Part shown: in pieces, positions 32,759-36,860 of the stretch | Layout of the letters: each line of letters begins with the position of its first letter | How positions within the stretch are numbered: the stretch's first letter is position 1 | Origin: Agromyces sp. NDB4Y10 | GTDB lineage: Bacteria > Actinomycetota > Actinomycetes > Actinomycetales > Microbacteriaceae | Length of the DNA: 64,000 nucleotides | Assembly: GCF_001620055.1 (NCBI RefSeq) | Contig: NZ_LQGY01000039.1 | Span: forward strand, 1 to 64,000 | Direction of reading: 5' to 3' | Program-made: the position numbers and the translations under genes | The notes under the pieces: generated by a model | The model's database searches: none | The model's input: only the letters and a program-made list of their open reading frames with translations | What the model was told of the DNA's origin: nothing

Positions 32759-33859
<1,101 letters not shown>

Positions 33860-33880
33860 CGCACCGCACCATGCGACCGC

Positions 33881-33912
33881 GATGCCGGTCGGGCTCCGGC
33901 CCGGCCGGCATC
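33881..33912. terminator. Terminator of the MsiK-like gene
   Basis: GATGCCGG (33881-33888) pairs with CCGGCATC (33905-33912), with an inner GGGC-TCCG-GCCC hairpin; 21 bases after the stop. Confidence 0.7.
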
Positions 33913-33938
33913 GTCGTTCCCGGGTACGCTTGGGCCTG

Positions 33939-35258
33939 ATGAGCGGCACACTCTCGATCACGTCGGCGATGACCGACCCCGCCCTGCTCGACCTCCCGTG
34001 GGACCTCCCGCTCGAGGCGTGGCCGAGCGAGACCATCGCGGCGCTCCCGAAGGGCATCTCGCGACACCTGGTCCGCTTCGCGCACCTCAGCGGCCACGTC
34101 GTGGCCATCAAGGAGACCACGGCCGAGATGGCCAAGGGCGAGTACGAGATGCTGCGCACCCTGCAGCGGCTCGAGATCCCCTGCGTCGAGCCCGTCGCGG
34201 TCATCACGAACCGAACGGATGCCGACGGCGAGGAGCTCGCGCCAGTGCTCGTCACCCGGCACCTGCGCTTCTCGCTGCCGTACCGGGCGCTGTTCTCGCA
34301 GACCCTCCGCCCCGACACCGCGACCCGCCTCGTCGACGCGCTCGCGGTCCTCCTCGTGCGACTGCACATCGTCGGGTTCTTCTGGGGCGACGTGTCGCTG
34401 TCGAACACGCTGTTCCGTCGCGACGCCGGAGCGTTCGCCGCGTACCTCGTCGACGCCGAGACGGGCAAGCTCTACGAGGGCGGCCTGTCGAACGGCCAGC
34501 GCGAGAACGACCTCGAGATCGCGCGAGTGAACATCGCCGGTGAACTGCTCGACCTCGAGGCGGGCGGCCGCGTCGCCGACGAGCTCGATCCGGTCAACAT
34601 CTCGAACGGCATCGTCGACGCCTACCGCAGCCTCTGGACCGAGCTGACCGGCTCCGAGTCGTTCGGGCTCGCCGAACGGTGGCGCATCAACGAACGCGTC
34701 AACCGCCTCAACGAGCTCGGGTTCGACATCGAGGAACTCGCCATCCGCACCGACGAGTCCGGAACCACGCTGCGCATCCAGCCGAAGGTCGTCGATGCGG
34801 GCCACCACCAGCGTCGGCTGCTCCGCCTCACGGGGCTCGACGCGGGCGAGAACCAGGCCAGGCGCCTGCTGAACGACCTCGACTCGTACCGCGCCGCGTA
34901 CAACAAGCAGGACCAGGACGAGGAGATGGTCGCGCACGAGTGGCAGATGCGCGTGTTCGAGCCCGTCGTCCGTGCCGTCCCGCAGGAGCTCCGCGGCAAG
35001 CTCGAGCCCGCCGAGGTGTTCCACGAGCTGCTCGAGCACCGGTGGTACATGGCGCAGCAGCAGGGTCACGACATCCCGCTGGCCGAGGCGCTCACCGCCT
35101 ACATCAACGATGTGCTGCGGCACCGTCGCGACGAGGCCACGGTGATCGGTCCGCCGACCGAGGCGATCACGACCGCGCTGCCGGCCGTCGGCCCGGACAC
35201 CGCCGAACTGGCCGTGCACGATCCCGACGACGAGGGCGACTGGCGCCTCAAGGTCTGA
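33939..35258 (+). CDS. DUF4032 protein with kinase-like N-terminal domain
   Basis: A 439-residue soluble protein. The N-terminal half resembles lipopolysaccharide/protein-kinase folds: a lysine strand (GHVVAIKETTAEMAKGEYEML), a catalytic-loop equivalent (FFWGDVSLSNTLFRR, W-G-D-x5-N) and a metal-binding equivalent (YLVDAETGKL). The C-terminal half is DUF4032 (ENQARRLLNDLDSYRAAYNK, HEWQMRVFEPVVRAVP). A phosphotransferase role is inferred; the substrate is unknown. TACGCT at 33925-33930 suggests a leaderless message. Its stop is six bases before the repeat array. Confidence 0.85.
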   Translation: MSGTLSITSAMTDPALLDLPWDLPLEAWPSETIAALPKGISRHLVRFAHLSGHVVAIKETTAEMAKGEYEMLRTLQRLEIPCVEPVAVITNRTDADGEELAPVLVTRHLRFSLPYRALFSQTLRPDTATRLVDALAVLLVRLHIVGFFWGDVSLSNTLFRRDAGAFAAYLVDAETGKLYEGGLSNGQRENDLEIARVNIAGELLDLEAGGRVADELDPVNISNGIVDAYRSLWTELTGSESFGLAERWRINERVNRLNELGFDIEELAIRTDESGTTLRIQPKVVDAGHHQRRLLRLTGLDAGENQARRLLNDLDSYRAAYNKQDQDEEMVAHEWQMRVFEPVVRAVPQELRGKLEPAEVFHELLEHRWYMAQQQGHDIPLAEALTAYINDVLRHRRDEATVIGPPTEAITTALPAVGPDTAELAVHDPDDEGDWRLKV

Positions 35259-35263
35259 TTCCC

Positions 35264-35398
35264 CCGGTGGTCGAGTAGGACGCGGCGGAGCCGTGCCCGT
35301 ACCGACACCCGGTGTCGAGTAGGACGCGGCGGAGCTGCGCCCGTCGCCAGCCCCGGTGGTCGAGTAGGACGCGGCGGAGCCGCGCCCGTACCGAGACC
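35264..35398. repeat. Left array: three palindromic extragenic repeats
   Basis: Three head-to-tail copies (35264-35308, 35309-35350, 35353-35398) of a ~42-46 bp unit that opens CCGGTGGTCGAGTAGGACG and ends near CCGTACCGAGACC. The centre of copy 3 is a perfect hairpin CGCGGC-GGA-GCCGCG; copies 1 and 2 vary in it. The array begins six bases after the DUF4032 stop. Its unit is inverted relative to the array at 35733. Confidence 0.92.
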
Positions 35399-35450
35399 AC
35401 GTGTGCACAGTCCCGGCGGCCGTACGCCCGCCTGCGCCAGACTCGCCCAC

Positions 35451-35732
35451 ATGGCATACATGTACATGCTTCGGTGCGCCGACGGCACGACCTACGTGGG
35501 AAGCACGGTCGACCTCGAGCGCCGCATCGCCCAGCACCAGGCGGGGGAAGGTGCCGAGTACACGCGACGACGACGTCCCGTGGAACTCATCCACGTCGAG
35601 GAGTACGCACGCCTCGACGACGCCTTCCGCCGCGAGAAGCAGGTCCAGAACTGGGGTCGGGCGAAGCGGCTCGCGCTCGCTCGCGGGGATCACGAGACCC
35701 TGGCTTCGGCGAGCAGGAAGCGCTGGACGTGA
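35451..35732 (+). CDS. Single-domain GIY-YIG nuclease-family protein (YhbQ-like)
   Basis: A 93-residue protein that is essentially one GIY-YIG domain. MYMLRCADGTTYVGSTVDLE carries the two strands of the motif, with RRIAQHQAG next. EYTRRRRPVELIHVEEY and FRREKQVQNWGRAKRLAL match the YhbQ/UPF0213 pattern, including the conserved REKQ helix. The domain cuts DNA with a divalent metal. CAGACT at 35438-35443, seven bases before the ATG, suggests a leaderless message. The gene is bracketed by inverted arrays of the same palindromic repeat, and its stop codon touches the right array, so it may act on or spread that repeat (inference). Confidence 0.92.
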   Translation: MAYMYMLRCADGTTYVGSTVDLERRIAQHQAGEGAEYTRRRRPVELIHVEEYARLDDAFRREKQVQNWGRAKRLALARGDHETLASASRKRWT

Positions 35733-35850
35733 GTCTCGGTACGGGCGCTTCGCGTCCTACTCGACCACCGGGTCTCGATACGGGCGCTTCGCGTCCTACT
35801 CGACCACCGGGTCTCGGTACGGGCGCTTCGCGTCCTACTCGACCACCGGG
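35733..35850. repeat. Right array: three 39-bp repeats, inverted relative to the left array
   Basis: Three nearly identical units at an exact 39-bp period, starting at 35733, 35772 and 35811. Each begins GTCTCGGTACGGGCGCTTCG (or GATAC) and ends CCTACTCGACCACCGG. The reverse complement shares both ends with the left-array unit but has a shorter centre (GCGAAGCGC-like hairpin). The array starts at the base after the GIY-YIG stop and ends two bases from the rlmB stop. Confidence 0.95.
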
Positions 35851-35852
35851 GG

Positions 35853-36860
35853 CTACTCGGCGCGCAGCTTCGCGATCTCGTAGAGCGTGACGGATGCCGC
35901 GATGCCGGCGTTCAGCGACTCGGTGGCCGCCGAGATCGGGATCGACACGATCGCGTCGCACGTCTCGGTGACCAACCGCGACAGCCCCTTGCCCTCGGAC
36001 CCGACGACGACCACGATCGGCCGGTCGGCGAAGTCGAGGCCGGGCAGCGACACATCGCCGTCCCCGTCGAGACCGAGCACGAACACGCCGCGCTCCTTCA
36101 GCGCCTTGAGGGTCTGCGTCAGGTTGGGCGCCATCGCCACGGGGACCCGTGCCGCCGCGCCGGCGGAGGTCTTCCATGCCGCGGCCGTCACGCCGACCGA
36201 CCGGCGCTGCGGCACGATCACGCCCTGCCCGCCGAACGCGGCCGTCGAGCGGATGATGGCACCGAGGTTGCGCGGGTCGGTGACGCCGTCGAGCGCCACG
36301 AGCAGCGGCGTCTCGTCGTCGGCGAGCACCTCGTCGAGCAGGTCGATCGGGTGCGCGTACTCGTACGGCGGCACCTTGAGTGCGAGGCCCTGGTGCACCC
36401 CGCCCTCGCCCGCGAGCCGGTCGAGCTCGGGCCGCATGACCTCGAGGATCGGGATGCCGCGGTTGGTCGCGATCTTCACGGCCTCCTTCACGCGGTCGTC
36501 CATCTCGATGCGTGCGGCGACGTAGAGCGTGGTGGCGGGGATGCGGGTGCGCAGCGCCTCCACGACGGCGTTGCGGCCGGTCACGATCTCCGACTCGTCA
36601 CCCGACTTCGACCGGCGGGCGGCACCCGACGCGCCACGAGGTGCGCCGGCGCGCTGCGGCGTGCGGCCGCCCGACTTCTCCGCGGCGCGCTCGGCTGCGG
36701 CCTTGCGCTTGTAGGCCTTGTGGTACGGCCGGTCCTCGGCCTTGGGGGTCGGGCCCTTGCCTTCGAGCGCCTTGCGGCTGTGGCCGCCGGTCCCGACCTT
36801 CTGGCCCTTGCCCTTCTTGCGCACGGCTCCCGCGCGAGGCTTTCCGCTGCTGCCCTTCAT
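35853..36860 (-). CDS. rlmB: 23S rRNA (guanosine-2'-O-)-methyltransferase RlmB (TrmH family)
   Basis: A 335-residue SPOUT methyltransferase. A ~85-residue Lys/Arg/Gly-rich N-terminal extension precedes the substrate-binding domain ([20 protein letters not shown]). The knotted domain has motif 1 [20 protein letters not shown], motif 2 [14 protein letters not shown] and motif 3 [20 protein letters not shown]. It 2'-O-methylates a guanosine in 23S rRNA. Four-base overlap with cysS, the usual actinobacterial arrangement. The basic extension is typical of actinobacterial members. Confidence 0.94.

Follow-up and report, generated by a model that had tools for sequence, protein, structure and literature searches.

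What connects a small GIY-YIG nuclease gene with the two inverted arrays of palindromic repeats that enclose it? This question is raised by a locus of Agromyces sp. NDB4Y10, which most likely represents a nuclease–palindrome pair resembling the Ssn system of Neisseria.

The gene encodes a stand-alone GIY-YIG nuclease of 93 aa (positions 35451–35732, + strand; Pfam PF01541, E = 1.6e-18) and lies in the 64-kb window, which is the whole stretch of DNA analyzed. Two genes converge on it: that of a DUF4032 protein on the left, the host side of the insertion site (33825–35258, + strand; PF13224, E = 1.8e-73), and that of a SpoU/RlmB-type rRNA methyltransferase on the right, the other side of the site (35853–36836, − strand; PF00588, E = 6.5e-35), the annotation of which is part of a longer open frame. 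The three upstream and three inverted downstream units described in the first-pass annotation are both recovered by direct reading and by a repeat search. Upstream unit 1 (GGTGGTCGAGTAG–hairpin core–TACCGACACC; 35266–35309) and unit 2, which has a degraded outer end (CGGTGTCGAGTAG...; 35310–35352), were found by these two means, and unit 3 (35355–35398), the core of which is close to that of unit 1, by the repeat search and a strict pattern; all three are on the + strand, head-to-tail, with spacings of 44 and 45. The three inverted 39-bp units on the − strand occupy 35733–35848: unit 1 directly follows the stop codon (35733–35770; direct reading and repeat search), and units 2 (35771–35809) and 3 (35810–35848) were found by the repeat search and the strict pattern.

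The general unit is an imperfect palindrome consisting of GGTGGTCGAGTAG, a hairpin core that varies in sequence and length, and TAYCGAGACC; upstream units 1 and 2 deviate from these consensus ends at one or both sides. Upstream and downstream units do have common ends and different cores, as was first noticed. The accompanying statement that arrays and gene fill the intergenic gap is correct for the flanking stops (DUF4032 at 35258, rlmB at 35853) and incorrect as to complete filling, with about 52 bp of non-repeat sequence before the ATG. With two mismatches allowed, the window contains 28 occurrences of the end motif, where 7.0 would be expected and no shuffled sequence gave more than 14; the five exact matches all lie inside the arrays flanking the gene. 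The arrays are thereby confirmed as real and not a product of chance. An Rfam scan of 35200–35900 gave no match up to E = 1. Throughout the 3.34-Mb genome, there are 35 strict copies of the unit against 0 for a reversed-pattern control, and a looser pattern gives 45 matches, two of which overlap each other. The same genome has two PF01541 matches, namely the 93-aa gene and UvrC (confirmed by Pfam domains).

Covariation is seen in both the hairpin cores and the arms of the units. Among the distinct cores of two Agromyces genomes, the Watson–Crick pairing fraction is 0.815, versus 0.61–0.62 when arms are swapped between cores; the corresponding values are 0.95 and 0.66 in genome G171, 0.95 and 0.82 in G045, and 0.75 and 0.63 in G129 (16 pairs only). 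The arms of 185 distinct units were compared at the positions next to GAG. Before GAG, the base forms a C–G pair with its partner in 140 units and a T–A pair in 45, with no mixed combination; after GAG, the pair is T–A in 164, G–C in 14, and something else in 7. The GTAG and GGAG forms therefore differ by a compensated base pair. As judged from the units themselves, the palindrome is shown to be under structural constraint, and the units fold with predicted DNA energies of −5.8 to −14.1 kcal/mol. On the GGTCTCGATAC...CTACTCGACC strand, transition-type mismatches are G·T and not A·C in 23 of 25 cases (distinct Agromyces cores pooled), which suggests that this is the folding strand; the trend is seen only in Agromyces, the other three genomes (G171, G045, and G129) having one G·T and two A·C in all.

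According to a crude codon-based gene caller, 66 of 76 units in three genomes lie between called genes, as do 26 of 52 in G210. The preference for convergent gene ends that had been proposed was not borne out: 11 of 92 intergenic units lie at such ends, which make up 20–24% of intergenic bases, and a further 12 of the 92 lie at an edge with undefined context. This result is to be treated with care because the crude caller placed half of the G210 units in genes.

The 93-aa protein is a small stand-alone GIY-YIG protein with a predicted intact active site. Y15, G17, R25, and H29 are invariant among 30 homologues and E62 is conserved in at least 90% of them; these five are taken here to be the catalytic residues of the GIY-YIG active site. 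The protein matches the T5orf172 model marginally (21.4 bits versus a cut-off of 20), and no Ssn-named model is present among its Pfam, NCBIfam, and PHROGs matches. Its AlphaFold2 model has a mean pLDDT of 91, and the best Foldseek matches of this model are the UPF0213 proteins 1zg2 and 1ywl, followed by Slx1. In comparison with the homologue of A. luteolus (genome G225; 92 codons), dN is 0.14 and dS is 1.23, synonymous sites being already much changed, which indicates that the gene is under purifying selection, as judged from this one pair.

Most other copies of the gene that were examined are also adjoined by repeats, as the first-pass annotation anticipated. Of 30 family loci, counting the own locus, 21 have end motifs (up to one mismatch, 500 bp per side) both upstream and downstream of the gene, five have them on a single side, and four (L039, L045, L055, and L061) have none. 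A scan of GTDB with the 30-sequence alignment revealed at least 554 stretches encoding relatives, of which the best 80 from named genomes were analyzed; these were chosen by similarity and are therefore not a random sample. The best 80 span Actinomycetota, Chloroflexota, Bacteroidota, Verrucomicrobiota, one Margulisbacteria, and one Stenotrophomonas record, and stray contigs are possible among them because many are metagenome bins. In a motif-free search of these best 80 loci, including four with a flank shorter than 200 bp, the two 500-bp flanks share a word of at least 14 in 60 loci and of at least 16 in 53, versus 20 and 5, respectively, of 520 control pairs taken from other parts of these loci. 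Flank words of at least 14 are likewise present in 21 of the 29 loci in the family set and in 21 of the 25 in the Agromyces set; these two sets partly overlap each other and the GTDB 80.

In the best 80 loci, the outer-end motif reaches 3.5 per kb in the 100 bp next to the gene and 5.2 per kb in the following 100 bp, compared with 0.16–0.18 per kb at a distance of 0.5–8 kb (reversed motif, at most 0.13 per kb); its density over these first 200 bp is thus raised 20- to 30-fold. Of the 199 motif matches within 500 bp, 134 are oriented with the outer end distal to the gene. The exact outer-end motif is absent within 600 bp in 29 of these 80 loci, many of which have other repeat classes; the two Verrucomicrobiota loci of the 80 have no flanking repeat. 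In 18 repeat-bearing genomes, the surroundings of a further GIY-YIG gene (UvrC in 17 of 18, by Pfam domains) have a motif density at background level, 0.10 per kb. GIY-YIG relatives on viral contigs have a flank word of at least 14 in 5 of 67 cases and lack one in 62 (one of 68 was skipped).

Six of 22 matches to distant plasmid-borne homologues were examined. The Methylobacterium bullatum gene (L286) has a different palindromic or inverted repeat on both flanks (CCTCATCCTGAGGTGCC), and the Sphingomonas parapaucimobilis gene (L287) has inverted repeat copies upstream, as judged by eye (CTTCGACTTCGCTCAGCCTGAACGG); no flanking repeats were found beside the homologues of S. paeninsulae, Acidiphilium, Cupriavidus, and Variovorax. 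The viral-contig loci L368 and L369 contain a 16-mer common to both flanks (AGCGAGCCTCGAAGGA), which resembles part of the Methylobacterium repeat.

The flanks of Agromyces nuclease genes carry distinct repeat classes: GTAG (GGTCGAGTAG...TATCGAGACC), GGAG (GGTTGAGGAG...CGTCTCGAAACC), a core-less GGTTGAGCxTGTCGAAACC, and CCCTGAGCTTGTCGAAGGG. Genome-wide copies of three classes (GTAG, GGAG, and CCCTGAG) were counted in 60 Agromyces genomes. Mean GTAG copies are 33.7 in the 13 genomes with a same-class nuclease, 4.9 in the 10 with an other-class nuclease only, and 4.6 in the 37 with none; the corresponding means are 37.8 (8 genomes), 1.3 (15), and 4.9 (37) for GGAG, and 129 (3), 2.3 (20), and 2.1 (37) for CCCTGAG. 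One-sided Mann–Whitney tests of same against other class yield p = 0.038 for GTAG (weak when taken alone), 0.0011 for GGAG, and 0.0024 for CCCTGAG, and when the class sets are shuffled among the 23 nuclease genomes, the observed fit is reached in 0 of 20,000 permutations. The class flanking the nuclease thus tends to match the class that is abundant genome-wide, which is the strongest result of this analysis.

In particular, a CCCTGAG-flanked nuclease is found in three genomes, and the same three have the most CCCTGAG units (213, 100, and 75); they are not independent, because two of them carry the nuclease at a common site and encode almost the same protein. G245, G218, and G250 each carry a pair of nucleases, of which one is GTAG-flanked and the other GGAG-flanked. 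Some genomes have few copies despite a same-class nuclease (GTAG: 0, 1, 2, 2, 4, 5, and 7; GGAG: 0, 3, and 8). The class label of G236 is doubtful (GGAG by 4 versus 2 motif matches); G208 and G202 show partial matches, and the gene of G214 is broken. The labels cluster on the protein tree, with 35 changes versus a shuffled mean of 51 (0 of 200 as low); this tree, built from the 118 proteins left after duplicates and short or broken sequences among the 133 loci had been set aside, and with “none” counted as a label, is poorly resolved, with 14 of 115 inner branches starred. On sequence evidence, the pairing of nuclease and palindrome is established.

Gene and repeat also co-occur at the level of the family. 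In 199 family genomes, the gene (threshold E = 1e-6) is present in 49 and the strict unit in 55, with both in 35, the gene only in 14, the repeat only in 20, and neither in 130 (Fisher odds ratio 16, p = 5e-14, genomes being counted as if unrelated by descent). Genomes and loci are related, and the tests therefore overstate independence. The strict pattern misses variants, so that counts of genes without repeats are too high; of the 14 gene-bearing genomes without a strict unit, some have variant units.

Repeats without the small gene are found in G045 (632 units), G069 (132), G025 (96), G057 (32), G079 (28), and G040 (25), and the small protein has no match at 1e-6 in any of the 20 repeat-only family genomes. 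A renewed PF01541 search of these 20 gave matches in 18, the best being UvrC in 17 and a protein with the GIY-YIG domain only in G192. Of seven weaker matches, two have a Schlafen-type helicase domain and five have no other domain, one of the five showing no domain at all at the threshold used. UvrC and the small gene were told apart by Pfam domains because open-frame length is uninformative (the open frame around a genuine small gene can be as long as 749 aa). Agromyces genomes without the small nuclease similarly include carriers of GTAG units (G210, 81; G079, 25; G242, 24), GGAG units (G211, 79; G240, 60; G241, 20), and CCCTGAG units (G243, 35; G238, 17). In the draft genome G210, contig C38 (L246) breaks off directly behind a pair of units that follow DUF4032, and absence of the gene there is therefore uncertain; G079 and G242 are single contigs. 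Several repeat-rich genomes without the small gene are thus counter-evidence against a strict dependence of the repeats on the nuclease. The early suggestion that copy number tracks the nuclease stands class by class in the 60 Agromyces genomes and fails for repeat-rich genomes without the gene (G045, G069, and G025).

Site comparisons indicate gain and loss. The end of the DUF4032 gene is present in 60 of 60 Agromyces genomes, and the DUF4032–rlmB gap could be measured in 27 of 30 sites fetched. With the gene, the gap is 594 bp in the own genome and 786 bp in G225, and it is 268 bp in G208, which has a cut-down inverted gene; the other 24 gaps have no GIY match, 18 of them measuring 11–146 bp (one, L197, contains half a unit) and six 575–653 bp. 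The 26 Agromyces GIY-YIG genes occupy 14 neighborhoods, as defined by single-linkage links after the GIY matches of the short locus L213 had been removed by hand. The long gaps of L187, L188, L190, L192, and L193 (575–577 bp) and L206 (653 bp) hold a different stretch of near-constant length, free of GIY matches and unit motifs, and the 146-bp gap of G205 (L179) contains an extended, imperfect inverted repeat that differs from the units.

For single units, 24 sites of G000 and G210 were located on 800 kb of G205, which lacks the gene. Two sites at which G205 is 1.2 kb longer were omitted, and the remaining 22 correspond to 19 distinct places, of which 14 have no GTAG or GGAG unit by pattern, four have a GGAG unit, and one has a GTAG unit; at least one of the 14 “empty” places is affected by a variant unit missed by the pattern (L261), and some are clean to within a few bases. 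Empty sites in relatives, proposed as a test at the outset, were found in this way for both the gene cassette (the 18 short gaps) and single units (the clean places of G205). The 800 kb of G205 contain only six GGAG units at five places, four of which are among the compared ones; chance would hardly give this overlap, which argues that some units are old and may have changed class in place. By themselves, the same-place other-class units fit change in place as well as insertion. A GTAG unit is present in G000 or G210 where G205 has GGAG at L016 1504–1538, L256 2637–2668, L026 1504–1589, L260 5659–5692, and L263 1868–1948. In addition, L026 at about 2530–2640 contains truncated units in tandem that have no inner end and look like amplification products of the outer end plus core.

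In the preferred reading, to which a probability of roughly 0.6 is assigned, the small GIY-YIG protein would recognize the folded single-stranded form of the palindrome (a hairpin or cruciform) via the conserved arms (GGTGGTCGAGTAG ... TATCGAGACC) and would then cut or nick it. The dispersed units would be its cognate targets, multiplied where a nuclease of the matching class is present now or was present recently, and the gene, bracketed by its own targets, would come and go between host genes as a cassette. Cleavage may lead to copying of the units or the cassette; we infer this step, like hairpin recognition and cleavage themselves, from comparisons of sequence. The original suggestion that the protein may have been co-opted to spread or process the palindromes is partly supported: it gains from the association, the class tracking, the empty sites, and the failure to find a Y1 transposase, and loses the preference for convergent ends. 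A broader proposal is put forward tentatively, at somewhat less than even odds: stand-alone GIY-YIG nucleases may be a second, HUH-independent kind of REP mobilizer that reads the paired arms of its palindrome, multiplies this class in the genome, travels between its own copies, co-diversifies with the arms by compensatory base-pair changes, and sometimes converts old units in place.

Three other explanations bear on the same data. The nuclease might mark targets without mobility, by cutting single-stranded units in incoming or replicating DNA (uptake or recombination control) while selection or recombination keeps and multiplies the units. Such a role agrees with the Neisseria Ssn system, with the persistence of repeats in genomes without the nuclease, and with the same-place other-class units of G205 (4 of 19), which point to old sites altered in place. 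However, copies rise with a same-class nuclease, as expected if the nuclease helps multiplication, and most of the compared G205 places have no GTAG or GGAG unit by pattern (L261 at least being a missed variant), some being clean; marking alone is therefore considered unlikely. The repeats might be spread by a RAYT or another transposase, with the GIY-YIG gene a passenger between two arrays: the units are REP-like and contain GTAG, and the literature associates REPs of the GTAG type with RAYTs (PMC3733652, PMC8266576). Against this, no Y1 transposase (PF01797) was found in the own genome or in 20 other repeat-bearing genomes (0 of 20; control genomes were positive in 5 of 14), on which ground a RAYT was rejected as the mobilizer, and a passenger predicts neither class matching nor repeated association across phyla, which makes hitch-hiking very improbable. 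That the units are ordinary extragenic hairpins (terminators or insulators) around a housekeeping-like small gene would fit their folding and their mostly intergenic position in three of the four genomes sampled (crude caller); it is strongly disfavoured, and has hardly any probability left, given the density peak beside the GIY-YIG gene and the class matching, together with the absence of units from many relatives, the lack of excess at convergent ends, and the Rfam scan without a match up to E = 1.

The nuclease–palindrome pair preferred here can be compared with several known systems. REP/RAYT systems (PMC8266576, PMC3733652, PMC2817692) share with it palindromes of 20–50 nt, many copies, a gene flanked by its own repeats, an irregular stem, and GTAG; the dispersed imperfect palindromes between genes (crude gene caller) are a further likeness. 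The enzyme here is a GIY-YIG protein and not a Y1 transposase, and GTAG lies inside the palindrome arm and not in a 5′ foot outside it, one class having GGAG with a compensating change. Strand-specific hairpin binding, the GTAG motif, and a bulge are described for RAYTs (PMC8266576), and the present units may be said to resemble RAYT-bound REPs by analogy only. The CGTC-tagged REPs, including Neisseria dRS3, appear in a 2013 survey as abundant palindromes apparently without a dedicated transposase (PMC3733652); the sequence here is another, and the likeness is that of abundant palindromes. Some abundant bacterial palindromes have no known mover, as the survey states for the CGTC REPs (PMC3733652). 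The class-by-class match of nuclease and palindrome provides a concrete candidate mover and a set of natural nuclease–target pairs on which structure and specificity can be studied; it may also yield new single-strand cutters with sequence specificity. Among the publications listed by literature searches, none connects GIY-YIG proteins with these repeats.

GIY-YIG homing endonucleases typically lie within an intron or intein or have a DNA-binding tail. They have in common with the present gene the GIY-YIG catalytic domain and gain and loss at sites, whereas here a single 93-aa domain lies between host genes, bracketed by many-copy palindromes. The identity of a homing endonuclease does not fit the protein, which is a single domain with no intron or intein setting or tail, and for which the grpIintron_endo match is far under the cut-off (20 versus 56 bits). 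The UPF0213-type proteins 1zg2 and 1ywl have the same fold and a similar length and are the closest solved structures; their entries are named hypothetical or are unnamed.

The idea of a GIY-YIG protein acting with a dispersed repeat is probably not new in kind, in view of the Ssn family. The Neisseria Ssn nuclease reportedly cuts single-stranded and not double-stranded DNA at NTS, a sequence with hundreds of genomic copies, and the family is said to include many homologues with differing target sequences. Neisseria dRS3 is reportedly linked to the Ssn target, and repeats of this CGTC-tagged kind to a GIY-YIG protein. A small stand-alone GIY-YIG protein, a short sequence in many copies, and homologue-specific targets are the features held in common, and the present units are dispersed in the genome as well as around the gene, as are Ssn targets. 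The differences are that the present pairs occur in Actinomycetota including Agromyces, in Chloroflexota, and in others, that their units combine fixed arms with variable hairpin cores, that several classes exist in one genus, and that the cassette is found at many sites.
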